Under the pieces are notes generated by a model. That model saw only the letters and a program-made list of their open reading frames with translations. It did no database searches and was not told the DNA's origin. The translations under genes and the position numbers were made by a program. A stretch of 64,000 bases of DNA from Melioribacter roseus (GTDB taxonomy: Bacteria; Bacteroidota; Ignavibacteria; Ignavibacteriales; Melioribacteraceae). Below, in pieces: positions 31,385-63,331 of the stretch. Positions within the stretch are counted from its first letter, which is position 1; every line of letters starts with the position of its first letter. Location: positions 1-64,000 of the forward strand of contig DYLK01000003.1 in assembly GCA_020722065.1 (NCBI GenBank), written 5' to 3'.

Positions 31385-31421
31385 AATCAATCAACCAATC
31401 AATCTATCTATCTATCTATCT
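31385..31421 (+). repeat. Short tandem repeats AATC and ATCT upstream of the pilin genes
   Basis: A degenerate AATC run (31385-31405) passes into five perfect ATCT units (31402-31421). The tract is 73-109 bases before the first pilin-like start codon and about 30 bases before a possible sigma-54 site. Tetranucleotide tracts of this kind change length by slippage and can alter promoter spacing. Confidence 0.8.
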
Positions 31422-31449
31422 ATTTTAACTTATAACCTTGCACATAAAT

Positions 31450-31493: not shown

Positions 31494-31883
31494 ATGGGAA
31501 ATCAACAATTATTACTCATCATTTTAGGAATTATTGTAGTAGGAATTGCGATTATTTCAGGTATTTATCTTTTTAGGGAACATGCAGTAGATTCAAAACG
31601 AGATACATTAATTCACGAGGGAATTAACATTTCATCGATGGCACAAAGCTACTATCTAAAACCACGAGAAATGGGCGGTGGAAGTGGCTCATTCAGTGGG
31701 TGGACAATTCCAAATAATTTAGTTCGTACAGCGACAGGAAGATTTTTTATAAGTAACAATTCAAATCCAATGGATTCAATTGTTTTCGAAGGAATTGGAA
31801 ATGAAGTAGCAACTTCGGGAGATTCAGTTCGAATTACAATTACTGTAACAAGAAATATTTACAGGGTTACGATTATTCATTAA
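31494..31883 (+). CDS. Pilin-like protein 1 with minimal MG leader
   Basis: A small protein of 129 residues: MGNQQLLLIILGIIVVGIAI begins a hydrophobic helix (about 4-26), followed by a helical stretch and a beta-rich C-terminal domain. If the Gly-2 to Asn-3 bond is the prepilin cleavage site, the leader is only two residues, and the usual Glu at mature position 5 is hydrophobic. I start at 31494, not at the upstream in-frame codons, because the paralogue 150 bases downstream begins identically. The pair shares AQxYYxKPxxxGGGxxxFxG after the helix. Position ahead of pilus assembly genes supports a pilin or pseudopilin role. It is not a canonical GFTLIE pilin. Confidence 0.75.
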   Translation: MGNQQLLLIILGIIVVGIAIISGIYLFREHAVDSKRDTLIHEGINISSMAQSYYLKPREMGGGSGSFSGWTIPNNLVRTATGRFFISNNSNPMDSIVFEGIGNEVATSGDSVRITITVTRNIYRVTIIH

Positions 31884-31955
31884 CCTGTAAAATTTACTGA
31901 ACTTGCGAATTTTATGAAAATCATCATAAAATCATAAAGAAATAAATAAGAAAAC

Positions 31956-31972
31956 TTGGCACAAAAATTTCA
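31956..31972 (+). promoter_or_regulatory. Possible sigma-54 promoter of second pilin-like gene
   Basis: TTGGCAC (31956-31962) followed by five A residues and TTTCA matches the sigma-54 -24/-12 pattern (TGGCAC-N5-TTGCA) with one mismatch. It lies 64 bases before the second pilin start codon. The similar TTGGCAC before the first pilin strengthens the suggestion. sigma-54 is known to drive pilA in Pseudomonas and Myxococcus. Confidence 0.4.
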
Positions 31973-32035
31973 ATACTTAACGCAGAAACTTAAAATTAAA
32001 TAATAACTCAAAACAAATTAAAAAGGAGATTCATC

Positions 32036-32479
32036 ATGGGACAACAACAATTATTACTCATCGTTTTAGGGGTTATCATAGTAGGAATTGCAGTTGTAGT
32101 TGGAATTAACGTATTTACAACAAGTTCACAATCATCAAGTAGAGATTTGGTTGTTTCTTCGTTAATTAATCTTGGTGCACAAGCACAACAATATTACAGA
32201 AAACCAACAGCTCTCGGTGGCGGTGGAAACGATTTTCAAGGATTTGCTTTAACTGCATCGCAATTTAATACTGCAGCTGGAGAATTTACAATTTCAACGT
32301 CTGTTCCAAGTGGTGCAACTGCAATTACTGGTGCGGCTGGAACAGTTTCATCTTCTGCTGATGAAATATATATTGTCGGGTCAGGTAATGATATAGGTAA
32401 TGACGGAACAAATCCAGTAAAATCCTATGTACGTGTTACACCAGATTCAATTATAGCCGCTTCAACGCCTTTGAATTAG
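32036..32479 (+). CDS. Pilin-like protein 2 with minimal MG leader
   Basis: A paralogue of the preceding gene, 147 residues. It opens MGQQQLLLIVLGVIIVGIAV, continues through a hydrophobic helix to about residue 27, and then has a small, Ala/Ser/Gly-rich domain containing QQYYRKPTALGGGGNDFQGF. A strong AAGGAG ribosome-binding site ends 8 bases before ATG, stronger than that of pilin 1, and an intrinsic terminator follows, so this is likely the abundant (major) subunit. A low charge density and no cysteines in the C-terminal domain are visible. The role as pilin is inferred from fold layout and neighbourhood. Confidence 0.75.
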   Translation: MGQQQLLLIVLGVIIVGIAVVVGINVFTTSSQSSSRDLVVSSLINLGAQAQQYYRKPTALGGGGNDFQGFALTASQFNTAAGEFTISTSVPSGATAITGAAGTVSSSADEIYIVGSGNDIGNDGTNPVKSYVRVTPDSIIAASTPLN

Positions 32480-32547: not shown

Positions 32548-33891
32548 ATGGTAGAACTAAAATTTTCGGCAGTAAAAACGAATGGAACAACGGTAACTGG
32601 AACAATTAATTCAGAAACCGTAAAATCTGGAAAGAATAAAATCAGTTCGATGGTTGAAAAATACAATTTGCAAAAATTGGTGATTGCTAAAAAGAGAAAT
32701 TTTATTTATAAGGTGAAAAAGAATGGCAAAATCGTAAAAGGAGAACAATCTGCTTTTTCGAGAGAAGAGGTTGTAAATGCAGTTACGAAATTGGGTTATG
32801 AAGTAGTTTCTGTCAATCCAAAATTGTTTGATTTTCAGATTAAACCGCCAAAGCAAGAAGTTTTATCATTTGTGAAAATTAGTGCCGAATTGCTAAAGCA
32901 AAAACTTGGTTACGGTGAAATAATGAATTTGCTTGTTAATGATATTAAACAGAAAACACTGAAAGAAACAATTCGACAAATTAACAATGAATTAAAAAAA
33001 GGGACAGATAGCCAAGTTGTTTATTCGAGATACGAATCTGTTTTAGGAAAATTTACTTCATATATGCTCGGACTTGCGGCAAAAAGTGGAAATATGACCC
33101 AAATTTATGAAGCAACTGCAAAATTCTTAGAACGACAAATGCAATTCAAAAAAGATTTGCGAAGTGCTTTAATTACTCCAATAGTTACTCTTTTTGTACT
33201 TTTCCTCGCAGTTTTATTTTATGTGGGCTATATTTTTCCAGAGACGGCAAAGTTATTTACAAAGTTTAATATTGAACTTCCTCCAATGACAAAAGCTACG
33301 CTTGATTTCAGTGAATTTTTAATAGAATATCCAATTGTAATTACATTAATTCTAATCATTCCTCCAATAATATTATGGAGATTTTCCAAAACTAAAAAGG
33401 GTAAATTATTGATTGATAAATGGTTACTGAGAATTCCAATAATAGGTAGTTTGATTCATAAAACAACAATTGAAGTATTTTGCCGTGTATTTTACACACT
33501 TTACACTGGCGCTGCGGAAAGTATTGAACCTATAAAAATTGCAGCCGAAGCTGCAGATAACGCATATTTTGAACATCAAATTAAAACAGTTGCAATTCCA
33601 TTAATGCTAAAAAAAGGAGTCGGTTTAACTGATGCTTTTGAAGCAACGGGAGTTTTTACAGAAACAGCTTTATCGCGATTTCATTCCGCTGAAGAAACTG
33701 GAACTCTTAAAAGTACGGCACTTCAACTTGCCAATTATTACGAAAGTGAAACTGTTTTTCGCTTGAAAAATATTGTAGAATTAGTTCAAGTTACAATTGC
33801 AATGATAATTATGATTGTAATGATTGGTTTAACACTAATTTCGGCTGAAACCGCAACAATTAGTCCGAAAAATCCGTTAATGGGTAGATAA
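32548..33891 (+). CDS. Type IV pilus/T2SS inner-membrane platform protein (PilC/GspF family)
   Basis: A polytopic platform protein of 447 residues linking the motor ATPase to the pilin-adding machinery. Two GspF repeats are visible, each a cytoplasmic helical bundle: about 105-210, ending in AAKSGNMTQIYEA, and about 300-405, with FHSAEETGTLKSTALQLANYYE. Each is followed by membrane segments (near 210-235, 258-280 and 415-440). The N-terminal ~90 residues, including a FIYKVKKNGKIVKGEQ segment, resemble the GspF N-terminal module. The gene starts 12 bases after the terminator and abuts the ATPase gene (TAA then ATG). Confidence 0.92.
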   Translation: MVELKFSAVKTNGTTVTGTINSETVKSGKNKISSMVEKYNLQKLVIAKKRNFIYKVKKNGKIVKGEQSAFSREEVVNAVTKLGYEVVSVNPKLFDFQIKPPKQEVLSFVKISAELLKQKLGYGEIMNLLVNDIKQKTLKETIRQINNELKKGTDSQVVYSRYESVLGKFTSYMLGLAAKSGNMTQIYEATAKFLERQMQFKKDLRSALITPIVTLFVLFLAVLFYVGYIFPETAKLFTKFNIELPPMTKATLDFSEFLIEYPIVITLILIIPPIILWRFSKTKKGKLLIDKWLLRIPIIGSLIHKTTIEVFCRVFYTLYTGAAESIEPIKIAAEAADNAYFEHQIKTVAIPLMLKKGVGLTDAFEATGVFTETALSRFHSAEETGTLKSTALQLANYYESETVFRLKNIVELVQVTIAMIIMIVMIGLTLISAETATISPKNPLMGR

Positions 33892-35706
33892 ATGGATAAA
33901 GAAATGGACAGAGAATTAATAGAACAGAAATTAGAAATGACCGACAAAATCGGTTATCTATTGCTTAAAAAGGGAATTATTGATTTCGAAATTCTTGAAA
34001 AAGCCTTGCAAGTAAAACTATCTGAAGCTGATAAATTAAAGAGAAATTTAGCTCAAATACTTGTTGAAGATTTTGGATACAATCATGATTTAATTTTTAA
34101 GGAAGTTGCAGTTTTATATGCTTTCAAAGAAATTCGTGAAGAAATTACTAATATTTCTGAAAAACGGTATGAAATTATAAAGAGGCTAAATGAAAGTTTT
34201 GGTGAGGAAATTAAAAAAAGTTTGCTCGAAAACAGAGTAATTATACTTCCATACGATAACAAACCTTCGGATAAAGTAATTCTTGCGGCTGTTGACCCTA
34301 CAAACAGAATGCTCACAAAACTTGCAAATCAGTTGAATTTGAAAAGATATGAAGTTTGCTATCTAAAATCTGCTGATTATGAAAATCTAATTCATCAAGT
34401 TTATCCACCAGAAAATGAATATCTGAAAATGATGGAAAATTCTGACGAGGTAATTGAAATTGAACACGAAGAATCGAATATCAGCGAAGAAGAAATTGAT
34501 TCAGAAATTAACAAAAGTGCTTTAATCAATTTAATTGAAGGAGCATTTATTGAAGGTGTAAGAAAAGGAGCGAGTGATATTCATATAATTCCAAACGGAC
34601 CTTTTTCCACAGACATTTTTATGAGAATTGACGGAAAACTTATGCTTTGGCACACACAAAAAAATACGCGTCCCGAAGCTGTAATTTCGGTTGTGAAAGA
34701 TCGTTCTCGTGGATTAGACAGATTTGAACGTGAAGTTGCACAAGATGGATTTATACAAAGAGAAATTGATAAAACAATAATTCGGTTTCGTGTTTCCGTT
34801 CTTCCAATTGTTGGAAAAGAAATCAAAAACAAGTTCGAATCAATTGTAATTCGTATTCTTGATGATAGAAAAGTTGTAAAAGATTTATCCAAATTAGGTT
34901 TACTTGGTTACGCATCGGAAGTATTTCAGAAAGCAATTCATCAACCACAAGGAATGGTAATTCTAACTGGACCAACAGGTTCAGGAAAAAGTACAACACT
35001 TGTTGCAGCGTTGTATCAAGTTATCAATCCAAGTGTGAATGTTCTAACTGTTGAAGATCCTGTTGAATATGAAATTCAAGGTGCGAGACAATTGAAAATT
35101 GGTTATAAAATGAATTTTGAACAAGCAATTCGAGCAATTTTACGACACGACCCCGATATAGTTCTGGTTGGAGAAATGCGTGATAAAGAAACAGCCGAAA
35201 CTGCGATAAAATTAGCAAATACAGGGCATTTAACATTTTCAACTCTTCACACAAACGACGCACCAAGTGCAGTTGCAAGATTATATAAAATGGGAATCGA
35301 ACCATTTCTGATTGCTTACGCAATTAATTTAATTGTAGCACAAAGATTAATTAGAAAACTATGTAATTCGTGCAAACGAAAAGTTGAAAACATTGATGAA
35401 AATTATTTGAAATCTGTGAATTTGGATGTTGATGAATGGAAATCCGCAGAAATTTATGAACCAGTTGGTTGCGAACATTGTAACAATACAGGTTACAAAG
35501 GAAGAATGGCAATTCACGAAGCACTTTATTTTACTAAAGAAATTCGTCAAATTATTGTAAAATCTGGAATTGAAGTTGATGAAGATGCAATTAGAAAACA
35601 GGCACGTTTAGATGGAACAAAAAGTTTACGAGAATCTGGTTTGGAGAAAGTAAAAGCTGGTTTAACTTCACTTCAGGAAGTAATTGCAGGAACAATGGAG
35701 GATTAA
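33892..35706 (+). CDS. Pilus assembly / secretion extension ATPase (PilB/GspE family)
   Basis: Hexameric cytoplasmic motor of 604 residues powering pilin insertion. N-terminal residues 1-170 resemble the MshEN/N1 domain, with an acidic linker to about 205. The ATPase domain has Walker A GPTGSGKST (360-368), an intact Asp box VEDPVEYEI, Walker B DPDIVLVGEMRD, and the His box THLHTND-type segment STLHTND. The zinc-binding tetracysteine region follows (CNSCKR and CEHCNNTGYKGR). All catalytic motifs are intact, unlike the PilT-like gene that follows directly. Confidence 0.94.
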   Translation: MDKEMDRELIEQKLEMTDKIGYLLLKKGIIDFEILEKALQVKLSEADKLKRNLAQILVEDFGYNHDLIFKEVAVLYAFKEIREEITNISEKRYEIIKRLNESFGEEIKKSLLENRVIILPYDNKPSDKVILAAVDPTNRMLTKLANQLNLKRYEVCYLKSADYENLIHQVYPPENEYLKMMENSDEVIEIEHEESNISEEEIDSEINKSALINLIEGAFIEGVRKGASDIHIIPNGPFSTDIFMRIDGKLMLWHTQKNTRPEAVISVVKDRSRGLDRFEREVAQDGFIQREIDKTIIRFRVSVLPIVGKEIKNKFESIVIRILDDRKVVKDLSKLGLLGYASEVFQKAIHQPQGMVILTGPTGSGKSTTLVAALYQVINPSVNVLTVEDPVEYEIQGARQLKIGYKMNFEQAIRAILRHDPDIVLVGEMRDKETAETAIKLANTGHLTFSTLHTNDAPSAVARLYKMGIEPFLIAYAINLIVAQRLIRKLCNSCKRKVENIDENYLKSVNLDVDEWKSAEIYEPVGCEHCNNTGYKGRMAIHEALYFTKEIRQIIVKSGIEVDEDAIRKQARLDGTKSLRESGLEKVKAGLTSLQEVIAGTMED

Positions 35707-36933
35707 ATGAACGAAAAGGTTTTGCAAGATATTCGTCGAGAAATTGAAATTTTTGAAGGGAATTTGTTGAATAGCGAAATTGTAACTTATACTGCAAAAA
35801 TAATTCAAACAATTTCAGAAGAACGAGTAAATTCGTATAGAAATGTCGTTGTTGAATTACTTCATAATATGATAAAATATAACGCATCGGATATTGAAAT
35901 TGGCGGCGATGGAACAAATAATATGATTTGGTTGCGAGTTGAAGGAATTAAAAGAGCAATTCCAGAATTTGGCGAGTTAAAACCATTAGAAGCTAATTTT
36001 CTAATTCTATCTTTATTGAATAAAAATCAAATTGAAAGTCTAATAATTGAAAGAAATATAGATTTTAGTTTTTCAATTAGGAATGATGAAGGTAAAAATT
36101 TCCGATTTAGAGGAAATATCTACTTCGAAATGGATAAATTGGCTATGAATTTCCGTGCAATTTCTGCTCAATTAAGAAAATTAAGCACTCTCGGATTTCA
36201 TTCAAATCTTGTTAGAATGATGAGTCACCAATATGTAAAAGCTGGTTTATCTTTAATAACTGGAATTACAGGCTCAGGCAAATCTTCAACTTTGGATTCA
36301 ATAATTGATTTTCATAATAGTTTTGACCCTGCACACATTATAATTCTTGCTTCGCCAATAGAATTTGTACATAAATCTTATAAATGTATAATTCGTCATC
36401 GTGAAATTGGAAAAGACGTAAAATCATTCCAAAATGGAGTTGTTGAAGCGATGAGACAAGATCCAGATATAATTGTAATTGGTGAAATGCGAGACCAAAA
36501 TACAATTCTTGCCGCTTTGGAAGCAACAGATACTGGACATAAAATTTTTTCAACATTACACACTTCTTCAGCAATAGAAACAATAGATAGAATTATCGCA
36601 GAAGTTAGTCCATTCGAGCAAGAACGAGTTCGTTTTCGTTTGGCGGATGTTTTAACTTCTGTAATATCACAAAAGTTAGTTCCGACAGTTTCAGGTAAAA
36701 GAATTCTGGCAAAGGAAGTTTTAATTGCAACACCAAGTGTTAAAGCTGCAATAAAAAGTAATAATCTAAACGAGATTTACGGAATGATTCAACAAGGGGG
36801 AAATTTGGGAATGATAACATTGGAACAAGATTTGCTCAGGTTATTTAAAGAACGAACAATAAGTAGCGAAACTGCAATATCGTTCTCAAATAACAAAACA
36901 AGAATGATGCAATTACTAAAGGCTGTAGAATGA
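35707..36933 (+). CDS. PilT-like retraction ATPase with altered Asp box
   Basis: A 408-residue ATPase, closest by eye to PilT. The Walker A motif is GITGSGKSS (186-194), Walker B reads DPDIIVIGEMRD, the His box reads GHKIFSTLHTSSA, and the C-terminal part carries the PilT-like EQERVRFRLADVLTSVISQKL run. At residues 215-219 it reads ASPIE where PilT and PilB normally read EDPIE, so the two acidic residues of the Asp box are gone. This may reduce or abolish ATP hydrolysis. Abutting starts and stops on both sides place it in the pilus operon. A retraction motor implies a pilus rather than a plain T2SS. Confidence 0.88.
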   Translation: MNEKVLQDIRREIEIFEGNLLNSEIVTYTAKIIQTISEERVNSYRNVVVELLHNMIKYNASDIEIGGDGTNNMIWLRVEGIKRAIPEFGELKPLEANFLILSLLNKNQIESLIIERNIDFSFSIRNDEGKNFRFRGNIYFEMDKLAMNFRAISAQLRKLSTLGFHSNLVRMMSHQYVKAGLSLITGITGSGKSSTLDSIIDFHNSFDPAHIIILASPIEFVHKSYKCIIRHREIGKDVKSFQNGVVEAMRQDPDIIVIGEMRDQNTILAALEATDTGHKIFSTLHTSSAIETIDRIIAEVSPFEQERVRFRLADVLTSVISQKLVPTVSGKRILAKEVLIATPSVKAAIKSNNLNEIYGMIQQGGNLGMITLEQDLLRLFKERTISSETAISFSNNKTRMMQLLKAVE

Positions 36934-38456
36934 AAAATTTAGTCTCAATATATTTCGATTCAGGAATGCTAAAAATTGCAATTTTCGAAAAAACATCTTC
37001 AAGTTTGCAAATACTGAAACTTATATCATCTTATCCGCTTGTTAATAAAAATGAAATGAATTATTCAGAAAAAACAGATTTGTCGAAAACATCAACTGAA
37101 ATGGATTTTGACGGATTTGAATTTAGCGAAGATAAAAATTCCAATGTAGTTGATATTGAAAAATTGAACACAGTTCTAAATGAGCTAAAATTTTCGAAAT
37201 ATGATGTTGTCATTTCATCATCAACGCCGGAAATTGATTTTGTTTGGTCAACAAAAAATGGAAAATCAAGCGAAATCGTAATAAGCAAATTAACTGAAGA
37301 AATTGCTGCGAATACTGGGCAAATAATTGGGAAAGATTTAGTTGATTTTCTTGAATCAGAAAATGAAAAAAATCTTGGTGTTTACATTAAAAGTGAAATA
37401 AAAGCGTTAAATCTATTAAATGAATTAGCAAGTAAAAATCGCAAGCGAAGTCAAAAAATTGTTGGAATAAAAAATTCCGAGATAACTTTGGCAAAATATG
37501 TAGTAAATAATAATGAAATACTTGCAAATGAACATTCGGTAGTAATTTATCTCGACAAATTCTTAAGTACAATTACTTTTCTAAAAGGGAAAAGCATTGT
37601 CCATTTTGGCGAGAAGTTGGATATTGGTACAAATTCCGAAGTTTATTCTGAAATATTTTCATCAAAAATCTTCTATGAAATGGAAAAAAGTAATATTTCT
37701 CATTTGGATAACATTTTTCTCTGTGGTGAAAATATTGATGAAGATGTTAGAATGAAATTCTATATAAATTTCCCAGAAACGAAGATAAAAATAGTTGATT
37801 TCAATTCAATAAAATTTGATGAGGCAGTTCTCTCCGAAAATAGCAAAACTTGTTCGTTTGCTATTCCAATCGCAACTGCTTTGGAATATTCTGAAGAAAT
37901 TGACAAGAAAAAGAAAATCGGAATTACAATTTTGCCAACTTATATAAAGGAACAGCAAAAATCACTTTCTTTGGGTTTTACTGGGATTGTAATTTTCATT
38001 CTTCTGTTTTTATCGGCGTTTTATTTTACAAGTTCAATTCTTGAAAAGGAAACTTTGCTTAAATCACAAGAACGACAAATTCGCAATTTGGAAAAAATTA
38101 AATCAGAAAACAGTGATTTGATTAATCAAATTTCGGGACTTTCGGGAAAAGTGAGCAACTTTTCGAACACAAAATTAGTTCTCGATTCACTTACTTTGAG
38201 CAACCGAGAATGGAGTAATAAGTTGATGGAAATTTCAAATTTTGCTGGAAATTACCGCAATTTTTGGTTAAAAACTTTAACATCAGAAGGAACAAATTCC
38301 GTTGATCTTTCAGGTTATTCACTTTCTCGTGGAGTTTTGACCGACTTGGCGAGATTTAACCAAAGTTCAACGATTTTCAGTATGCTTTACGAACCGCTAA
38401 AAAAATTAAATACATATAAATTCAATCTAAAATTCCCATTAAAGGTGAAAAAATGA
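36930..38456 (+). CDS. PilM-PilN-like fusion (inner-membrane assembly protein)
   Basis: A 508-residue protein. Residues 1-340 look like a PilM/GspL-type actin-fold cytoplasmic domain: it starts VSIYFDSGMLKIAIFEK and has a central strand with VVIYLDKFLSTITFLKG, plus an FLCGENIDED segment like the phosphate-2 loop. A single membrane helix (about 346-368) follows, then a coiled coil rich in Lys/Glu (about 370-400), then a PilN-like periplasmic domain. PilM and PilN are usually two proteins; the layout here resembles GspL of T2SS. It overlaps pilT and the next gene by 4 bases each. Assignment rests on order, topology and fold hints. Confidence 0.75.
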   Translation: MKNLVSIYFDSGMLKIAIFEKTSSSLQILKLISSYPLVNKNEMNYSEKTDLSKTSTEMDFDGFEFSEDKNSNVVDIEKLNTVLNELKFSKYDVVISSSTPEIDFVWSTKNGKSSEIVISKLTEEIAANTGQIIGKDLVDFLESENEKNLGVYIKSEIKALNLLNELASKNRKRSQKIVGIKNSEITLAKYVVNNNEILANEHSVVIYLDKFLSTITFLKGKSIVHFGEKLDIGTNSEVYSEIFSSKIFYEMEKSNISHLDNIFLCGENIDEDVRMKFYINFPETKIKIVDFNSIKFDEAVLSENSKTCSFAIPIATALEYSEEIDKKKKIGITILPTYIKEQQKSLSLGFTGIVIFILLFLSAFYFTSSILEKETLLKSQERQIRNLEKIKSENSDLINQISGLSGKVSNFSNTKLVLDSLTLSNREWSNKLMEISNFAGNYRNFWLKTLTSEGTNSVDLSGYSLSRGVLTDLARFNQSSTIFSMLYEPLKKLNTYKFNLKFPLKVKK

Positions 38457-39346
38457 GTAGAAATCTTAAAAATACAATAGCCCTTTTTGTCTTGTTATTG
38501 CTTGTTTCGGGTTTTGGTGGAATTTATTCTTTTGTTATTCAATCAAAAAAGATTTCAGTTAATGAAAAAAGATTGGATGAACTCAAACAATTTTCGAAAA
38601 ATAGAGATGCACTTTTAAGAGAAGTTTCACCGTTGAAATCTGAAGTTACAAAGTTGGATTCTTTGTTGAATAAAATGGAATACAACATTCCAACAAATCT
38701 TTCGCAATATGATTTTTATGATTTTGTAATTAAAAAAACGGCAAATTTTTCATCAAATTCCCATGTAAATGTAACTTTTCTTCAAAAAAAAGATTTGAAA
38801 GATTTCTCTTATTACGAATATCTAATTTCTGGAGATGCATATTATAATGATTTGTATAATCTGATTTTTTCAATTGAAAATTCAAGAGCGATAAAACAAG
38901 TCTCAAATGTAAGTTTAAGTGGGGCAATTATTGTAGATGAAGAAGGAATTCCAAGATATTTAGTGAATTTTAAGTTTAATGTAAGAGTTTTTTCTTCATC
39001 ATCTAACAGATTTGTAGCTAGTGATTTTTATGAAAAAGAGCTTGTTGCTCCAAAACTTTATGATATGTTTTACCCATTAATTCGAGATAAAATTATCCCA
39101 AATCTTGAGCATAATTTAGATGTTCACACAGCCAAATTGTTAGCAGTTCTTCCTAACGGAGCATATTTAACAGATGCAAGTCAGCAAACATTTCTGCTAA
39201 ATAAAGGCGATAAAGTTTATCTCGGATATTTAACTTCAATCAATCGAGAAGACGATGAAGTGGATTTTGTAATAAATAATGGTGGAATTGTTGAATACGT
39301 AACGTTAACATTAAAGAACGAGGAAAAAAATGAACAGAAAAAGTAA
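38453..39346 (+). CDS. PilO-like protein with C-terminal PilP/GspC-HR-like domain
   Basis: A 297-residue inner-membrane protein. It has one N-terminal membrane helix (about 10-30), a coiled coil (about 35-80) and a ferredoxin-like PilO/GspM domain to about 185. The C-terminal ~75 residues (from 222), with LLAVLPNGAYLTDASQ and then KGDKVYLGYLTSI, match the short beta-sandwich pattern of PilP or the GspC HR domain that binds the secretin. No separate pilP gene is present between here and the secretin, which fits a fusion. It overlaps the neighbouring genes by 4 and 17 bases. Confidence 0.65.
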   Translation: MSRNLKNTIALFVLLLLVSGFGGIYSFVIQSKKISVNEKRLDELKQFSKNRDALLREVSPLKSEVTKLDSLLNKMEYNIPTNLSQYDFYDFVIKKTANFSSNSHVNVTFLQKKDLKDFSYYEYLISGDAYYNDLYNLIFSIENSRAIKQVSNVSLSGAIIVDEEGIPRYLVNFKFNVRVFSSSSNRFVASDFYEKELVAPKLYDMFYPLIRDKIIPNLEHNLDVHTAKLLAVLPNGAYLTDASQQTFLLNKGDKVYLGYLTSINREDDEVDFVINNGGIVEYVTLTLKNEEKNEQKK

Positions 39347-40598
39347 ATTATTAGTCATTTTTCAAGTGATATTTATCAGTTACACATTCCAATTTGCTCA
39401 AGTTGAACTTGAAAAAGAAATGAATCAATATTTTCATCCCGATGAATTAGTTAGTTTTTCTGAACATATTCCATTCAACCGAGCAATTGAAATTTTAAGT
39501 GCGATTAACGAAAAATACACGGGAAGAACAATTCGTTCATTAATAGATAAAAAAGATCCAATAGGAATTGAGATAAAACAAACTCCATATTGGAAAGCAT
39601 TGAAAATTATTGTGCAATTCAACAATTTGTTTTATGAAACAAAAGAAAATGCAATAATAATTCAACAAAAGGATGAAATTAAAAATCTTGATACAAAAAC
39701 TTATGCCGATATAGAAGAAGGGCAAGTAAAAATATCAGCGTTGTTTTTTGAAGCAAATACAGCAAAATTGCAAGAACAAGGAATTAATTGGCAATTGTTG
39801 CTTTCAAAATCGGGAGTTACAATTGGAAGTGGTTTAGTAACATTCGGGCAACCTTCAACAAATAATAGCGAAAGCGAAGAATCTTCGGCAATTCCACCGC
39901 AATTTATGAATGAAATATCACATGATTTTACTTCGGGTGATTATCAAGGGAATATTACCGCACTTTTCAACTTCTTTCAATCACAAAATTTGGGACAAGT
40001 AATTGCAAATCCATCAATAATTGTAAGAAATGGTCAAGTTGGAAGAATTCAAATTGGTTCAGATATTTCTATAAAACAACGAGATTTTGCTGGAAATGTT
40101 CTTGATGCATTTGTTTCAACTGGAAGTATTGTTGAAGTTACTCCATATATTTATAAACAAGATGGAATTGAATACGCTCTCCTTAAATTGAAATTAGAAA
40201 GAAGCTCAGTTTCGCCCGATGTTACAAGGACAGAAATACGTAAAACTACCGCAAGTACAGATGTTTTGATGTTAGATGGCGAAGAAACTGTAATTGGTGG
40301 TTTGTTTGTTACAGATATTGTAAATGTTAGGCGTGGAATCCCATTTTTAAAAGATTTACCTTGGTGGGTTTTGGGAATTCGATACATTGCTGGTTACGAT
40401 TATGAATCAGAAGAAAAGAAAGAAATAATCATTCTACTAAAAACTGAAATAATGCCAAGTCTCAAAGAACGTTTTGCGAATAAATCAATTCAAAATAATT
40501 TGATAAAAAAAGAAATTCAGAATGGAAACGATTATATTCAAAAAAATAAAGTTTATGACATTGGATCAGAATTAACCGAAATCGGGGTAAAAAAATGA
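39330..40598 (+). CDS. Short secretin (PilQ/GspD family)
   Basis: An outer-membrane channel protein of 422 residues with a signal peptide ending near FQFAQ (residue 24). A single small N-domain follows (about 40-115), and the secretin core runs from about 120 to 385 with VIANPSIIVRNGQVGRIQIG, VEVTPYIYKQ and the C-terminal gate/signature VRRGIPFLKDLPWWVLGIRY. Family members usually have several N-domains and 600-750 residues, so this is a short form. It overlaps the PilO-PilP-like gene by 17 bases and the first receiver gene by 4. It should form the exit pore of the pilus. Confidence 0.88.
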   Translation: MNRKSKLLVIFQVIFISYTFQFAQVELEKEMNQYFHPDELVSFSEHIPFNRAIEILSAINEKYTGRTIRSLIDKKDPIGIEIKQTPYWKALKIIVQFNNLFYETKENAIIIQQKDEIKNLDTKTYADIEEGQVKISALFFEANTAKLQEQGINWQLLLSKSGVTIGSGLVTFGQPSTNNSESEESSAIPPQFMNEISHDFTSGDYQGNITALFNFFQSQNLGQVIANPSIIVRNGQVGRIQIGSDISIKQRDFAGNVLDAFVSTGSIVEVTPYIYKQDGIEYALLKLKLERSSVSPDVTRTEIRKTTASTDVLMLDGEETVIGGLFVTDIVNVRRGIPFLKDLPWWVLGIRYIAGYDYESEEKKEIIILLKTEIMPSLKERFANKSIQNNLIKKEIQNGNDYIQKNKVYDIGSELTEIGVKK

Positions 40599-40960
40599 TT
40601 TCAATATTAATTATTGATGATGATAAATATCTTGCTGAACTACTTGCTGATGAATTGAAAGAATTAGGTTTCAAATCGGAATTTGTAAATTCGGCGTCAG
40701 AAGGAATTTCCCAACTTAGCCAAGAAAATGATTACGATATTGTTCTTTTAGATTTAAAAATGCCCGAGCACGATGGCTTTTGGGTTCTTGAAAAAATGCG
40801 AGAAATTGATTGTAAACAAAAAGTTATTGTAGTAACCGCCTATGCCGATTTAGATTCAGCACTAAAATCAAGCAAACTTGGAGCGAGTGGTTTTGTAAGT
40901 AAACCATACGATTTGGATGATTTGTTGATTACAATACGAAGTGTTCTGCAAGAAATATGA
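40595..40960 (+). CDS. Single-domain response regulator
   Basis: A stand-alone receiver of 121 residues. The acidic pocket ILIIDDDKYL is followed by the phospho-acceptor Asp in VLLDLKMPEHDG, the conserved Thr in VVTAYAD and the Lys in VSKPYD, so it should be phosphorylatable. There is no output domain, as with CheY-like or PilG/PilH proteins that steer pilus motors. It overlaps the secretin gene by 4 bases, linking it to pilus control. Its kinase is not evident in the window. Confidence 0.88.
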   Translation: MISILIIDDDKYLAELLADELKELGFKSEFVNSASEGISQLSQENDYDIVLLDLKMPEHDGFWVLEKMREIDCKQKVIVVTAYADLDSALKSSKLGASGFVSKPYDLDDLLITIRSVLQEI

Positions 40961-41412
40961 AAAAATCAAAATCATATAATTTTAGTTTCCATCTTTCAAA
41001 TGAACAATTTGAGAATAATAATTTTGTGGGTTTTGATGAAAAACTTGCAACAATACTTGTAAATGATGACGATGAAACAGTACTTAATCAGTTTACCAAA
41101 TTTCTTGAGGAACTTCCGTTGCAAGTAATAACAGTTAAAAGTGGTTTTGAGACATTAATTTTACTGAATAAAATTTTACCCAAATTGATTTTTCTTGATG
41201 TATTAATGCCAGATTTTAGTGGATTTGAAACTATTTTTCGCATTAGAAATGATAAACGATTTTCATATATTCCAATTATTGCTTTAACATCTTTTGCAAT
41301 GCATGAAAATTTGAACATAATCAAAAAAAATGGGTTTACAGATTTTCTTCTCAAACCTATAAAAAAAGAAGAATTAATTAAAAAAATAAATCAATTTGTA
41401 TTTGACAAATAA
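40957..41412 (+). CDS. Receiver-domain protein with N-terminal extension
   Basis: A 151-residue protein with about 28 leading residues ahead of a receiver domain. The acidic pocket reads ILVNDDDETV, the acceptor Asp is in LIFLDVLMPDFSG, and the Thr and Lys equivalents are IIALTSFAM and LLKPIKK. The pocket sequence departs somewhat from the usual VDD, but the residues are acidic, so function is plausible. It overlaps the upstream receiver gene by 4 bases. No output domain is visible. Confidence 0.82.
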   Translation: MKKSKSYNFSFHLSNEQFENNNFVGFDEKLATILVNDDDETVLNQFTKFLEELPLQVITVKSGFETLILLNKILPKLIFLDVLMPDFSGFETIFRIRNDKRFSYIPIIALTSFAMHENLNIIKKNGFTDFLLKPIKKEELIKKINQFVFDK

Positions 41413-41413
41413 A

Positions 41414-42100
41414 ATGAAGAAAAAAATACTTGTAGTTGACGATCAACAAGCTAACATTTTTATAATCACGGAACGCTTAAAAAAAGTTGGTTACGATGTA
41501 ATAACTGCCGAAGATGGAAAAACTGCTATTGACATTGCAATAAATGAAATTCCAGATTTGATTTTACTTGATGTAATGATGCCCAAAATGTCGGGATTTG
41601 ATGTTTTACAATTTTTGGTTGCTCACGAAAAGACAAAAGATATTCCTATTATTTTGTTAACTGCTCTAACTGATTTTGAAGATGTTAAAAAAGGTTTCGA
41701 ACTTGGGGCTTTCGATTATGTTAAAAAACCATTTAATCGTGAAGAGCTACTTGCCAGAATTCGTTCGGCATTGCGATTTAGTGAAACAAACAAACTTTTG
41801 CTTGAAAATGAAAAAATGAAATTGTTTCAAGCATTTGTGGTTACCGCAAATCACGAAATACAACAACCACTTACAATGATTAATCTTTCGACTGCAGCAC
41901 TTCGAAGAAAATTTACAGAAAATGGTTTAATTGAAGATGAATTTGTTTCGAAACGAATTGATTTTATTGAAAAAGCAGCGGCACATTTAATTGAAATTGT
42001 AGAAAAACTAAATAGAGTTAAAAGACCAGTTTTCACAGAATATTTGAATAACCTTGAAATGATAAATATAGATTCCCCTGAAAAACCTCAAAATGAATAA
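41414..42100 (+). CDS. Receiver fused to a lone HisKA-like dimerisation domain
   Basis: A 228-residue protein. Residues 1-125 are a receiver with ILVVDDQQAN, the acceptor Asp in LILLDVMMPKMSG, the Thr in ILLTALTD and the Lys in YVKKPFN. Residues 140-215 form a helical pair with an H-box-like FVVTANHEIQQPLTMI, so the phospho-accepting His is kept. No HATPase domain follows, so the protein cannot phosphorylate itself. It could pass phosphate between Asp and His groups or dimerise. The ATG at 41414, one base after the upstream stop, is chosen over a TTG at 41396. Confidence 0.82.
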   Translation: MKKKILVVDDQQANIFIITERLKKVGYDVITAEDGKTAIDIAINEIPDLILLDVMMPKMSGFDVLQFLVAHEKTKDIPIILLTALTDFEDVKKGFELGAFDYVKKPFNREELLARIRSALRFSETNKLLLENEKMKLFQAFVVTANHEIQQPLTMINLSTAALRRKFTENGLIEDEFVSKRIDFIEKAAAHLIEIVEKLNRVKRPVFTEYLNNLEMINIDSPEKPQNE

Positions 42101-59159: not shown

Positions 59160-60488
59160 ATGAAATTAAAATTTGCAATAATATTTTTAATCTTTACACA
59201 ATTTCTATTTTCACAAAATAACGGGAATGTTTATCATTTGCGTATTGAAAATGAAATTGATTTGGGTTTAATTCCTTACGTTAAACGTGGAATTGAATTA
59301 GCTGAAGAAAATAAAGCAAAGGCAATTATTGTTGAAATAAATACATTTGGCGGAAGACTTGATGCCGCAACTGAAATAAAAGATTTAATCCTTAATTGTA
59401 AAGTCCCAACAATTGCATTTGTTAACAAAAGAGCAATATCGGCTGGAGCTTTAATCACACTTTCTAACAAAACTATAATTATGTCGAAAAGTGCATCGAT
59501 TGGTGCGGCAACAGTTGTTGACCAAGAAGGGGAAAAACAAAGTGAAAAATATCAATCATTTATGCGTTCTGAAATGCGAGCTACTGCCGAGGCGACAGGT
59601 AGAAATCCTAAAATTGCAGAAGCGATGGTAGATGAAACGGTTCAAGTTGAAGGTTTAGACGATTCTTTAAAATTAGTAACTTTAACTTCTGAAGAAGCTA
59701 AAAAGTGGGGAATAGCTGACACAATTTTAAATTCAATTGATGATATTCTTAAATACAAGGATTTAGAAAATGCATCTGTTGTGGAAGTAAATCCAAATTC
59801 AGGAGAATCAGTTGTAAGATTTCTGAATCATCCAATAATTAGTTCGATACTTTTAATGGTTGGAATGCTCGGACTTTTTGTTGAAATAAAAACACCAGGG
59901 TGGGGAGTTGCTGGGACAATCTCGTTAATCGCATTTTTCTTGTTCTTTGGAACTGGAATTGTACTTGAAATTGTTTCACTTCTTGATGTAATTCTATTCA
60001 TATCTGGTGTAATTTTAATTATTGTTGAGATATTTTTTATACCTGGGTTTGGCGTTCCTGGTTTGCTTGGAATATTAATGATAGTTTTAAGTATGTTTTT
60101 GGGATTATTACCAGATTTCAATTTTATCACAACAGATTTAGTAGAATCTGCTATTTTGCAAATAGCAATTTCTTTAATCGCAACAATAGTTTTGGCAGTT
60201 ATTCTTCTTAAATATTTGCCAAAAACATCATTGATGAACAATTTTGTGCTAAACACAAGCATAAATAGTAAAAGTAGTTATGTAATAAATGAAAATAGAA
60301 GTGAATTAATCGGGAAAGAAGGAATAGCAATTTCAGATTTACGCCCTACAGGCTTTGCTATTATAGATGGAAATAGAGTTGATGTAATTACAGAAGGTGA
60401 ATTTATTTCTCGCGATTCAAAAATTGTCGTGATAAAAGAAGAAGGTTCAAAAGTTTTAGTAAAATTAATAGAAAGGTCTTATAAATGA
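59160..60488 (+). CDS. NfeD-family ClpP-class membrane serine protease
   Basis: A 442-residue protein. A signal peptide (about 1-18) leads into a ClpP-like protease domain (25-200) with the nucleophile S94 in RAISAGALITL and a Lys in the EEAKKWGIAD region that may complete the Ser-Lys pair. Several membrane helices follow (about 220-360) and then a C-terminal OB-fold (about 375-440, LIGKEGIAISDL and onward) typical of NfeD. The family helps regulate membrane proteases such as stomatins. It overlaps the following large secreted protein by 4 bases (ATGA). Confidence 0.88.
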   Translation: MKLKFAIIFLIFTQFLFSQNNGNVYHLRIENEIDLGLIPYVKRGIELAEENKAKAIIVEINTFGGRLDAATEIKDLILNCKVPTIAFVNKRAISAGALITLSNKTIIMSKSASIGAATVVDQEGEKQSEKYQSFMRSEMRATAEATGRNPKIAEAMVDETVQVEGLDDSLKLVTLTSEEAKKWGIADTILNSIDDILKYKDLENASVVEVNPNSGESVVRFLNHPIISSILLMVGMLGLFVEIKTPGWGVAGTISLIAFFLFFGTGIVLEIVSLLDVILFISGVILIIVEIFFIPGFGVPGLLGILMIVLSMFLGLLPDFNFITTDLVESAILQIAISLIATIVLAVILLKYLPKTSLMNNFVLNTSINSKSSYVINENRSELIGKEGIAISDLRPTGFAIIDGNRVDVITEGEFISRDSKIVVIKEEGSKVLVKLIERSYK

Positions 60489-63331
60489 AAAAGATGTTAT
60501 ATGTTCTTTTTGCTCTTGTAATCAGTACAAATTTATTTGCACAAATTACATATAGTGGACCAGCAGACGGTTCAGTTGCTACAGGTGTAATTGTTAGCAC
60601 GGATTCCTTTGGAAAATCCGAATTGAAACAATCACCACGTGTAAAATTATTTGTAAATCAAGATGTTAAACTAGTTGATGATATTTATAATAATACTTCC
60701 TCAACTGCCCCAGAAGGTTCAAATGTTGTTTCAAGTATAAATAAATCAATTAATGATTTTGAAGATAGTTTGATAACTTTCACAAGTTTTAAAGGATTTA
60801 CTCAAGAAAATTCAATTCCCCCAGATCCATATTTAGCAGTTGGACCAAATCATATAATTCAAGTTGTGAATAGTAGATTTATGATTTATGATAAAGAAGG
60901 AAACATACTGAAAGATATTGATGCAGATTCATGGTTTGCAAGTACACTAACAGGTGTTAGTACATTCGACCCAAAAGTAATATATGACCATTTCAGTGAA
61001 CGTTGGGTTCAAGTTTGGTTACATATTTCTTCAACAGAAGGATATTATTTGATTTCTGTATCTGATGATTCTGACCCATTAGGCACTTGGTTCAATTGGG
61101 CTTTGCCTTCACACTCAAACGGAAACACTCCATCGGGATCTTGGGGAGATTATGAAGGAGTTGGTTTTGATGATAAAGCTATTTACTTGACCTCAAATCA
61201 ATTTACCTTTGCTGGAAATTATGATAACACAAAATTGAGAATTATTGATAAAACAAATTTATATAATGTAACAGCACCAGGAGAAGTAACATTTAAAGAT
61301 ATTTGGAATATTACCTATCCTGGGACAAGTTATGATTGTTTTGGATTACGTCCAGCAAGAATGGAAACTAGTTCAACAAATTATTATTTTGCAGTACAAT
61401 CACCTTATTCTACAGGAACTAATGTTGGAATTTATACTTTAACCGACCCTTTGGGAACACCATCTTTAGATGGCGAAGCAGTTCCAACTGTTGCTTATTC
61501 AACTCCACCAGATGCTAATCAGTTAGGTGGTGGATCTCCACTAATTGATGGTGGAGGAGCATATTTTAGAAATGAACCACTATACAAGAATGGGAATTTA
61601 TATATTGTGCATGCTGTAAAAAATGGCTTGTATTCTGGAGTACATTACCTTGAAATTGGTACACGTGGTGGATTAAATGTAATTGAAGATATTGTTTTGG
61701 GTAACACAAATTATTATCATACATATCCAGCAATTGCAATTGATGCTAATAATAATAAATGGATTACTTATTCAAGATCATCAGCAAATGAATATATGGG
61801 GGCATACTTTTCTGTAATTCCAAATGGAAGTAGTTTACCAACAGCCGATCAAGTATTAATGCCAGGACAAGATAATTATGTTGTAACTTACGGAGGCTCG
61901 AGAAATCGTTGGGGAGATTATAATGGAATTTGGACTGATCCAGATGATAGAAACAATATTTGGATTTCAACTGAATTTGTTAACTTTTCGAATAATTGGG
62001 GAGTTTGGAACGCGGGAATACGAGCAATTCCTTTTGAAAATGCAACAATAAATATTTCAGCGGAACAATTAGATTTTGGACAAGTAGAAATCGGTCAAGA
62101 ATCAGAATACCAGAATATTGTAATCAAAAATTTTGGAAATGAACCACTTAATATTACAAATATCGAAAATACAGTTGGAGATATTAGTCTAACTTTTGAT
62201 AATCTCCCAATTGAATTGGCAGCTTATGATTCAGCAATTATTACTGTTCAATTTGTCCCAAATGCCGATTCTGTTTTTTCTGATAACATAATTATTACAG
62301 CCTCAGGAAATACATACGAAATATCAGTTTCGGCAGAAGGATATTTCATTCAGGAGGCTTACGAACATACAATCTACACTTCTACAGGAAGAGCAGATTT
62401 GGGTTCATTAGCAACACTTGATTTGCAAACTGCTAATTCAACTGTAGTTGGTCAAACTACTTTTTCAGCTGCTCGTTCTGTAACATATAATCCATTAACA
62501 AACAAACTTTGGGGAATAGGTGGTTTAGTTTCTCAAAATGCGGATATTATTGTAATATCCAGCAAAGATGGACAAGGATTTAAGAAATTTACATTGAATA
62601 ATGTTTATGATGCAATTGCTTTTGACCCAAATGGAATTCTTTATGGTGTAACTGACGATGAAAAATTATATACAATAAATACTGAGAATGGCGAAGAAAC
62701 TTTTATTGTTAATATCCCTACACGAATGGCGTCAATTACTTTTAGACCAACTTCATCTGAGTTGTGGGGAAGTTTAAGATCAAATACTACTAAAGATATG
62801 ATTGTTAAAATAGATTTAACTACAGGAGATACAACTCTTGTTGGAAGAACTGGCTTAAATAATGTACTTTGGGGAATGGCATTTGATAATGATGACAATT
62901 TATATGCAGTTCAAGGAACAGAATATCAGGAAAGTACTTTATTAAGTATCAATTCTAATACTGGAGTTGGAACAGCAGTCGGTTTAACTGGAAGAAAAGG
63001 ATTAATGGGTTTAACGTTTGCACGAGATGGATTGGTTGGTATTGAAATTAGCGACAACAATAATCCTACAAAATTCGATTTAATGCAGAATTATCCAAAT
63101 CCATTCAATCCAACAACAAAAATTAGTTATACATTGTCAGAAACAAGTCAAGTTGAACTTACTGTTTTCAATTCGTTAGGACAATCAGTAGCCACTTTAT
63201 TTAATGGAGTTCAAACTTCAGGAAATTATTCAATAGATTTTAATGGGAAAAATTTGGCAACTGGCGTTTATTTTTATAGATTAAAAGTAAACGAAAAAAT
63301 ATTTGTTAAAAAGATGATGTTATTGAAGTAG
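60485..63331 (+). CDS. Large secreted protein with type IX secretion sorting domain
   Basis: A 948-residue exported protein with a signal peptide (1-19). Residues 100-510 hold a beta-propeller-like region with several YLAVGPN- and WTDPDDR-type blades. Residues about 521-620 fit a choice-of-anchor D domain (DFGQVEIGQE, NFGNEPLNITNI), followed by a second propeller region (about 630-850). Residues 865-948 are a type A T9SS C-terminal domain, marked by QNYPNPFNPTTKISY and the GVYFYRLKVNEK strand, the signal for transport across the outer membrane. Likely a cell-surface adhesion or binding protein. Ligand unknown. Confidence 0.87.
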   Translation: MKKMLYVLFALVISTNLFAQITYSGPADGSVATGVIVSTDSFGKSELKQSPRVKLFVNQDVKLVDDIYNNTSSTAPEGSNVVSSINKSINDFEDSLITFTSFKGFTQENSIPPDPYLAVGPNHIIQVVNSRFMIYDKEGNILKDIDADSWFASTLTGVSTFDPKVIYDHFSERWVQVWLHISSTEGYYLISVSDDSDPLGTWFNWALPSHSNGNTPSGSWGDYEGVGFDDKAIYLTSNQFTFAGNYDNTKLRIIDKTNLYNVTAPGEVTFKDIWNITYPGTSYDCFGLRPARMETSSTNYYFAVQSPYSTGTNVGIYTLTDPLGTPSLDGEAVPTVAYSTPPDANQLGGGSPLIDGGGAYFRNEPLYKNGNLYIVHAVKNGLYSGVHYLEIGTRGGLNVIEDIVLGNTNYYHTYPAIAIDANNNKWITYSRSSANEYMGAYFSVIPNGSSLPTADQVLMPGQDNYVVTYGGSRNRWGDYNGIWTDPDDRNNIWISTEFVNFSNNWGVWNAGIRAIPFENATINISAEQLDFGQVEIGQESEYQNIVIKNFGNEPLNITNIENTVGDISLTFDNLPIELAAYDSAIITVQFVPNADSVFSDNIIITASGNTYEISVSAEGYFIQEAYEHTIYTSTGRADLGSLATLDLQTANSTVVGQTTFSAARSVTYNPLTNKLWGIGGLVSQNADIIVISSKDGQGFKKFTLNNVYDAIAFDPNGILYGVTDDEKLYTINTENGEETFIVNIPTRMASITFRPTSSELWGSLRSNTTKDMIVKIDLTTGDTTLVGRTGLNNVLWGMAFDNDDNLYAVQGTEYQESTLLSINSNTGVGTAVGLTGRKGLMGLTFARDGLVGIEISDNNNPTKFDLMQNYPNPFNPTTKISYTLSETSQVELTVFNSLGQSVATLFNGVQTSGNYSIDFNGKNLATGVYFYRLKVNEKIFVKKMMLLK

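Follow-up and report, generated by a model that had tools for sequence, protein, structure and literature searches.

Can a type IV pilus be assembled from pilins that carry no leader peptide? Two neighbouring genes at positions 31494-32479 of the window, a 64,000-nucleotide stretch of the Melioribacter roseus genome, raise this question. The initial annotation had read their products as pilin-like paralogues that are either cut after Gly2, releasing a two-residue leader, or left uncut. All type IV filaments are taken to depend on prepilin cleavage as a core step, and gene finders and pilin predictors search for a leader and for PilD. Glu at mature position 5 is usual, although not invariant, in type IV pilins. 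Passages of two reviews include the prepilin peptidase in the conserved set, describe class III leaders as 6-26 residues long and ending in Gly or Ala, and state that mutants in Glu5 are unable to make homopolymeric pili (PMC4471445; PMC10191384). In Synechocystis, a strain that lacks PilD suffers harm from its uncut prepilin (PMC8546353). For Melioribacter itself, one paper reports pilB, pilC, pilT, and pilQ as present and pilA and pilD as "not found".

Results

Pilin Genes and Their N-Termini

Both open reading frames were confirmed, and each begins M-G-(Q/N)-Q-Q (Table 1). The products are paralogues (41% identity, BLASTP E 5e-20) that have the segment AQxYYxKPxxxGGGxxxFxG in common (AQSYYLKPREMGGGSGSFSG and AQQYYRKPTALGGGGNDFQG); as had been proposed, a leader is absent from both, and so are Lys, Arg, and acidic residues from residues 1-24. 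The pilin B gene has an AAGGAG ribosome-binding-like site shortly 5' of its start. No Shine-Dalgarno-like site precedes the ATG of pilin A, whose frame is open for 67 codons upstream. Both traits are mostly absent among the relatives, and the upstream frame was treated as chance because most relatives have none. Searches of Pfam and NCBIfam gave no match beyond chance for pilins A and B. Over 46 family members, Pfam matched ComP_DUS best (in 11 members, lowest E 9.6e-5), and no clear family emerged from NCBIfam. Ahead of pilin A lies an ATCT tetranucleotide repeat of 6.5 copies (31398-31423), part of a larger AATC/ATCT array that starts at 31385; the repeat may be variable in length and so influence expression.

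Stretches encoding pilin relatives were confirmed in genome contigs in 442 cases, a pattern far beyond chance. For the start-codon count, 189 pilin-like ORF matches in the loci were considered, 5 without the N-terminal motif were dropped, and the 184 kept comprised 171 distinct members. A start codon lies directly before Gly2 in 171/171 (150 ATG, 12 GTG, and 9 TTG), with a Shine-Dalgarno-like site in 133 of them; the open frame upstream has a median of 4 codons and is no longer than 10 codons in 150. Because the first scan for relatives had used the pattern MG[QN]QQLLL, the survey loci found by HMM were scored apart, and the start codon preceded Gly in 50/50. An in-frame start codon upstream of the MG start occurs in only 4 of 149 distinct relatives. 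With the start codon right before Gly throughout, there is therefore no leader, and none of the 171 members has a class III leader of 6-26 residues ending in Gly or Ala. A true start upstream with a normal leader, which the initial annotation had named as the finding that would overturn it, was rejected for the family.

Among the 149 distinct members started by ATG, the N-terminus is M-G-(Q144/S3/H1/N1)-Q-Q, so that QQQ occupies residues 3-5 in 144. In this set Lys and Arg are absent from residues 1-27 and acidic residues from 3-24, and residues 6-24 are hydrophobic in 149/149, as in the alpha1N stretch of 20-25 residues in pilins. M1, G2, Q4, Q5, and L8 are invariant in the 46-sequence alignment, in which conservation is highest in the helix. 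Several ORFs were left out of the count. Three longer ORFs (L127 3464-4261, L129 4716-5534, and L130 3522-4355) are related to each other, measure about 265-278 aa, have several membrane segments, and match the pilin HMM weakly and partially with unrelated N-termini. The 249-aa ORF L128 3242-3988 is a fusion in which a zinc-ribbon-like start and membrane segments are joined to a pilin-like C-terminal part, and the pilin of L134 is cut by the contig end.

Predicted Fold and Register

An AlphaFold model of pilin B, built from the 46-sequence alignment, has a pLDDT of 91.6 and shows a helix at residues 3-55 followed by a four-stranded sheet, the lollipop arrangement of a long helix and an antiparallel sheet. 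Foldseek searches of the PDB returned no match at E ≤ 0.001 for this model or for that of the minor pilin W described below, and it was only the second look with VIA-align that ranked pilins first. The best match was full-length PAK pilin (1oqw_A; Z 7.8, rmsd 2.9, with 117 aligned), and pilins accounted for all four chains with Z ≥ 5. The family profile gave 9 matches to PDB sequences, of which 7 were judged pilins: six are named pilin or GspG, the best being a Geobacter pilin (E 0.0023), and 6xxe, labelled "uncharacterized", was assumed by us to be a pilin; the remaining two are dihydrofolate reductase. By sequence the homology of pilins A and B to known pilins is weak, and in the modelled structure they are predicted to have the pilin fold.

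The structure and profile comparisons agree on the register, in which residue n corresponds to mature position n-3. Gly17 is thereby paired with Gly14, and Leu8 stands at the Glu5 site, where we take the canonical numbering of PAK-type pilins to apply. Residue 8 is Leu in 146, Ile in 2, and Val in 1 of the 149 distinct relatives. The lack of Glu5 noted earlier thus holds at the structural site, and the predicted fold, together with the operon of machine genes, bears out the reading of the two proteins as type IV pilin-like.

Operon and Machine Genes

Pilins A and B head an operon encoding PilC, PilB, PilT, PilM-N-like and PilO-P-like proteins, and PilQ (Table 1), and the type IVa machine set of PilB, PilC, PilT, and PilQ is present in the window. 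The profile of the PilM-N family matched PilN in the PDB (E 1.1e-6), and 11 of its 22 members carry a Pfam PilN match, the best at 3.3e-5. The PilO-P profile matched PilO in the PDB weakly (E 0.02), and Pfam PilO was found in 2 of 20 members. Directly after the secretin gene, three response-regulator-like genes are chained over 40595-42100; they are possibly the control of the operon.

Table 1. Genes of the leaderless pilin operon in the window.
Feature	Position	Strand	Evidence
Leaderless pilin A	31494..31883	+	129 aa, starts MGNQQLLLIILG; ORF and family start-codon test
Leaderless pilin B	32036..32479	+	147 aa, starts MGQQQLLLIVLG; ORF, AlphaFold, VIA-align, PDB profile
Platform protein PilC/GspF	32548..33891	+	Pfam T2SSF E 3.9e-22; within PilC clade of leaderless systems
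Extension ATPase PilB/GspE	33892..35706	+	Pfam T2SSE 1e-103; TIGR02538 4e-124, below its cut-off
Retraction-type ATPase, PilT family	35707..36933	+	TIGR01420 pilT_fam 8.7e-95, 317.8 bits against cut-off 319.1
PilM-PilN-like fused protein	36930..38456	+	Sequence for the PilN half, position alone for the PilM half
PilO-PilP-like fused protein	38453..39346	+	Weak; PilP part suggested by position between PilN and PilQ
Outer-membrane secretin PilQ/GspD	39330..40598	+	Pfam Secretin 1.8e-21; TIGR02515 PilQ 5.8e-26
Three response-regulator-like genes	40595-40960, 40957-41412, 41396-42100	+	ORFs with overlapping starts; family read from sequence

Among the 48 loci of relatives with at least 9.5 kb downstream, PilC was found in 41, PilB in 41, and PilT in 40. 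All six machine genes were present in 33, and the order of those present was kept in 43. Four loci (L017, L033, L074, and L075) have leaderless pilin genes and no machine genes within 9.5 kb downstream; these are possible satellite pilins. Elsewhere in the window, 60485-63331 encodes a large secreted protein with the C-terminal motif NPFNPTTKISYTL, which is presumably type IX secretion-like.

The PilC tree (85 rows) places all 70 pilin-adjacent PilCs and 3 others in one branch with 100/100 support, apart from the 12 other rows. The three rows labelled "other" inside this clade (L134, L138, and L098) belong to genomes in which the pilins occur at another place in the locus or genome, and the count of 3 label changes reflects the 4.5-kb neighbour rule. 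The window PilC falls among the Melioribacteraceae of Ignavibacteriota; the long branches outside the leaderless clade are unsure. On this tree the PilCs of leaderless systems appear to be one lineage.

Minor Pilin Cassette

A three-gene cassette, V-W-X, was found in 25 of the 154 loci searched, a count in which L141 and L142 are the same place in the own genome and a single contig carries both L018 and L024. It is complete in 23, and the two incomplete loci contain V only, at a contig edge. The own genome carries the cassette on contig 29 (43907-46390), outside the pilin operon. V mostly begins M-x-T-G-Q-T, with Gln5 invariant in an alignment of 24, most W members carry an early Asp, and X begins M-[F/G/L]-G-K or M-G-[K/N/R]. 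Each of the three proteins starts no more than a few residues from the transmembrane helix, and a leader is absent. Lys and Arg are absent before the membrane helix in V (24) and W (23), whose second residue is often Asn, Ser, Thr, or another residue.

The AlphaFold model of the own-genome W protein (L142:4402-4998; pLDDT 87.2) has the GspJ fold. Its top ten entries, which score Z 10.3-12.0, comprise GspJ/XcpW/EpsJ complexes and the TTHA1219 pilin, and the next entry is at 5.2. As modelled, W is clearly GspJ-like, while the labels GspI-like for V and GspK-like for X come from position and shape only. The V and X profiles found no pilin in the PDB, and the W profile found only TTHA1219 (E 0.87). 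Pfam gave nothing on W members and DUF4900 in 12 of 23 X members; the GspK-like X (L142 5003-6391, L079 6702-7835) showed weak matches to DUF4900, DUF7305, or bactofilin and not to a GspK domain. Alignment of W with the full-length pseudopilus model 9a1f again gave the n-3 register, with Asp8 of W at the Glu5 site. An acidic residue at this structural site is thus kept in W and its relatives, and not in the major pilin.

Prepilin Peptidase Across Genomes

The search for a prepilin peptidase suggested in the initial annotation was run with two profiles. In the own genome (2.38 Mb, 100% complete), neither Peptidase_A24, whose control was positive in 12 of 14 genomes, nor a 9-sequence FCB-derived PilD profile gave a match at E ≤ 1, and no N_methyl-type pilin was found. 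The profile searches found no peptidase gene for pilin processing and N-methylation in this genome.

A survey of 99 genomes of the phylum, each at least 90% complete, found leaderless pilins in 39; T2SSF was present in 39/39 of these and in 57/99 overall. With Pfam alone, Peptidase_A24 exceeded its cut-off in 4/39 pilin genomes and in 12/18 other T2SSF genomes (Fisher p 3e-5). Because Pfam missed divergent PilDs, a phylum-specific profile was made from nine aligned PilDs of the phylum, in which both catalytic Asp residues are invariant, and was applied at E ≤ 1e-3. PilD was then detected in 4/39 pilin genomes and in 15/18 other T2SSF genomes (p 1e-7), leaving 35/39 leaderless-pilin genomes without a detectable peptidase; the nine profile sequences come from 8 surveyed genomes, which are thus found by construction, and the p values exaggerate independence owing to kinship among the survey genomes.

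Three of the 18 conventional genomes (G021, G034, and G087) were missed by the PilD profile, and two pilin genomes (G046 and G074) have N_methyl hits without a detectable PilD; PilD detection is therefore imperfect. Weak matches at E 0.03-0.33 in pilin genomes G030, G069, G085, and G031 look like chance. The four pilin genomes with PilD (G009, G014, G065, and G077) all carry conventional N_methyl pilins, and the PilD of G014 lies inside a conventional cluster with GFSLTELM, GFTLIELM, and GYTLIETL pilins.

A second set of 23 pilin-bearing genomes was picked to include Calditrichota, KSB1, and Kryptonia, with some shared with the survey (for example, L028 and G031 have the same hit position). 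PilD was found at E ≤ 1e-3 in 12 of them; N_methyl pilins accompany it in 10 of the 12, and PilD occurs in 2 of the 12 genomes without N_methyl pilins (p 6e-4). These two were inspected by eye: in G099 the PilD adjoins a PilB-like ATPase ORF of another cluster, and in G103 no pilus gene was recognised nearby. As judged from co-occurrence, PilD goes with conventional systems and not with the leaderless one. In Calditrichota and KSB1 pilin genomes, where PilD is present, it may have a role in the leaderless system. Taken across these genomes, the leaderless state extends to the minor pilins and tracks the absence of prepilin peptidase, two points that the initial annotation had not raised. As for the two routes considered in the initial annotation, the uncut one is favoured and cleavage after Gly2 is not, there being no peptidase match at E ≤ 1 in the own genome and none detectable in most relatives.

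Discussion

Our results are best explained by a type IVa-like, probably retractile pilus whose entire pilin set, the tandem major pilins A and B together with the GspI/J/K-like minor trio, is encoded leaderless and near-mature, with no use of prepilin peptidase or N-methylation; we give this reading a probability of roughly three in four. A broader proposal, which we regard as fairly probable, is that a branch across Ignavibacteria-type Bacteroidota, Kryptonia, Calditrichota, and KSB1 dispenses with any prepilin processing, such that all pilins are leaderless, methionine aminopeptidase alone trims the major pilin, and a conserved Gln cluster in place of the Glu5 salt bridge secures the filament core.

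Comparative sequence shows that translation starts at M-G-x-Q-Q. The hydrophobic N-terminal helix would then be inserted as a signal anchor by an SRP/Sec/YidC route, with the head in the periplasm. The lack of leader charge counts against the leaderless model here, as the positive-inside cue for pilin topology is lost. Methionine aminopeptidase acts when residue 2 is Gly. By this rule it, and not PilD, would remove Met before Gly2, leaving Gly-(Gln/Asn)-Gln-Gln-Leu, which would explain why Gly2 is invariant in the major pilin; since the second residue of V and W varies, the argument covers the major pilin and some minor ones only. From the gene content, PilB and PilC, with PilM-N and PilO-P, would polymerise the pilins through PilQ from a V-W-X tip complex, and PilT would retract them. 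Leu in place of Glu5 precludes the salt bridge from Glu5 to the N-terminus; instead, the N-terminus may be capped or hydrogen-bonded by the two to three Gln residues beside it. The pilus could possibly serve adhesion, twitching, or DNA uptake. ComEC and helix-hairpin-helix proteins are present in the own genome; these families are common and not specific, and they do not prove DNA uptake.

Other explanations have to be weighed against this model. The machine could build a T2SS-like pseudopilus for secretion instead of a surface pilus, given that the minor trio resembles GspI-J-K and W matches GspJ structures best. However, a T2SS has no PilT-type ATPase, whereas a PilT family member is encoded in this operon and in most of the relatives' loci, and the T2SS is described in a passage of a 2023 review as arising on loss of PilT (PMC10191384); we consider a pseudopilus unlikely. 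Cleavage after Gly2 by a prepilin peptidase that is unrelated or too divergent to be detected is slightly less likely still. Such a cut would obey the PilD rule of Gly at the cut position, and the profiles did miss some conventional genomes, so absence is not absolute. Nevertheless, the two profiles gave no match in the own genome, both registers put residue 4, and not residue 3, at mature position 1, V and W have no Gly at that place, and a two-residue leader would fall outside the 6-26 aa given for class III leaders in part of a review (PMC4471445).

The remaining alternatives are far less probable. An N-terminal hydrophobic segment without Glu5 would suit exported proteins that signal peptidase I cleaves and that are not filament subunits. 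Yet such cutting would remove the assembly helix, whose residues are the most conserved, and it would not fit the fixed linkage to PilC, PilB, PilT, and PilQ, which makes this reading very improbable. We give least credence to a longer N-terminus with an ordinary leader, the MG start being an annotation artefact. It draws on pilin A, which alone of the pair has the 67-codon open stretch upstream, with a K-rich segment before MG, and is already refuted at the family level by the uniform position of the start codon and the rarity of upstream in-frame starts.

The leaderless system shares with the type IVa pilus its machine gene content, PilT, secretin, predicted pilin fold, and minor pilin set. 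It differs in that no pilin found has a leader, the major pilin has no Glu5, no prepilin peptidase was detected in the own genome, and the PilM-N-like and PilO-P-like proteins are fused. With GspI, GspJ, and GspK (XcpV/W/X) it shares a three-gene V-W-X cassette, the match of W to GspJ/XcpW/EpsJ, and Asp at the Glu5 site of W, but here all three proteins are leaderless. MSHA pilins have leaders. The MSHA loci resemble this one in being without a peptidase gene of their own, and those treated in the relevant part of Denise et al. lie in genomes that have one (PMC6668835); that peptidase, of another system, may serve MSHA, whereas most genomes here have none detectable. The Bacteroidetes T2SS-like system of Cytophaga hutchinsonii is also a type IV filament system of the same broad group; in contrast, it has the Peptidase_A24 protein CHU_3197 and conventional pseudopilins, as described in part of its report (PMC5553014). 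Conventional PilC rows of the phylum lie outside the leaderless clade, and Cytophaga is not in the tree by name. The leaderless state looks derived from a PilD-using ancestor, because the history given in the 2023 review (PMC10191384) has PilT and PilMNO added at a later stage. No description of a leaderless-pilin system was recognised in the open-licence papers searched.

The leaderless pilins resolve the report of pilA and pilD as "not found" in Melioribacter, and if the system works without a leader and PilD, "incomplete" pilus gene sets such as that one would be explained. Leader removal, N-methylation, and Glu5 would then not be intrinsically needed for pilus assembly, and these bacteria would offer a natural model for asking what each of the three does in other pili.
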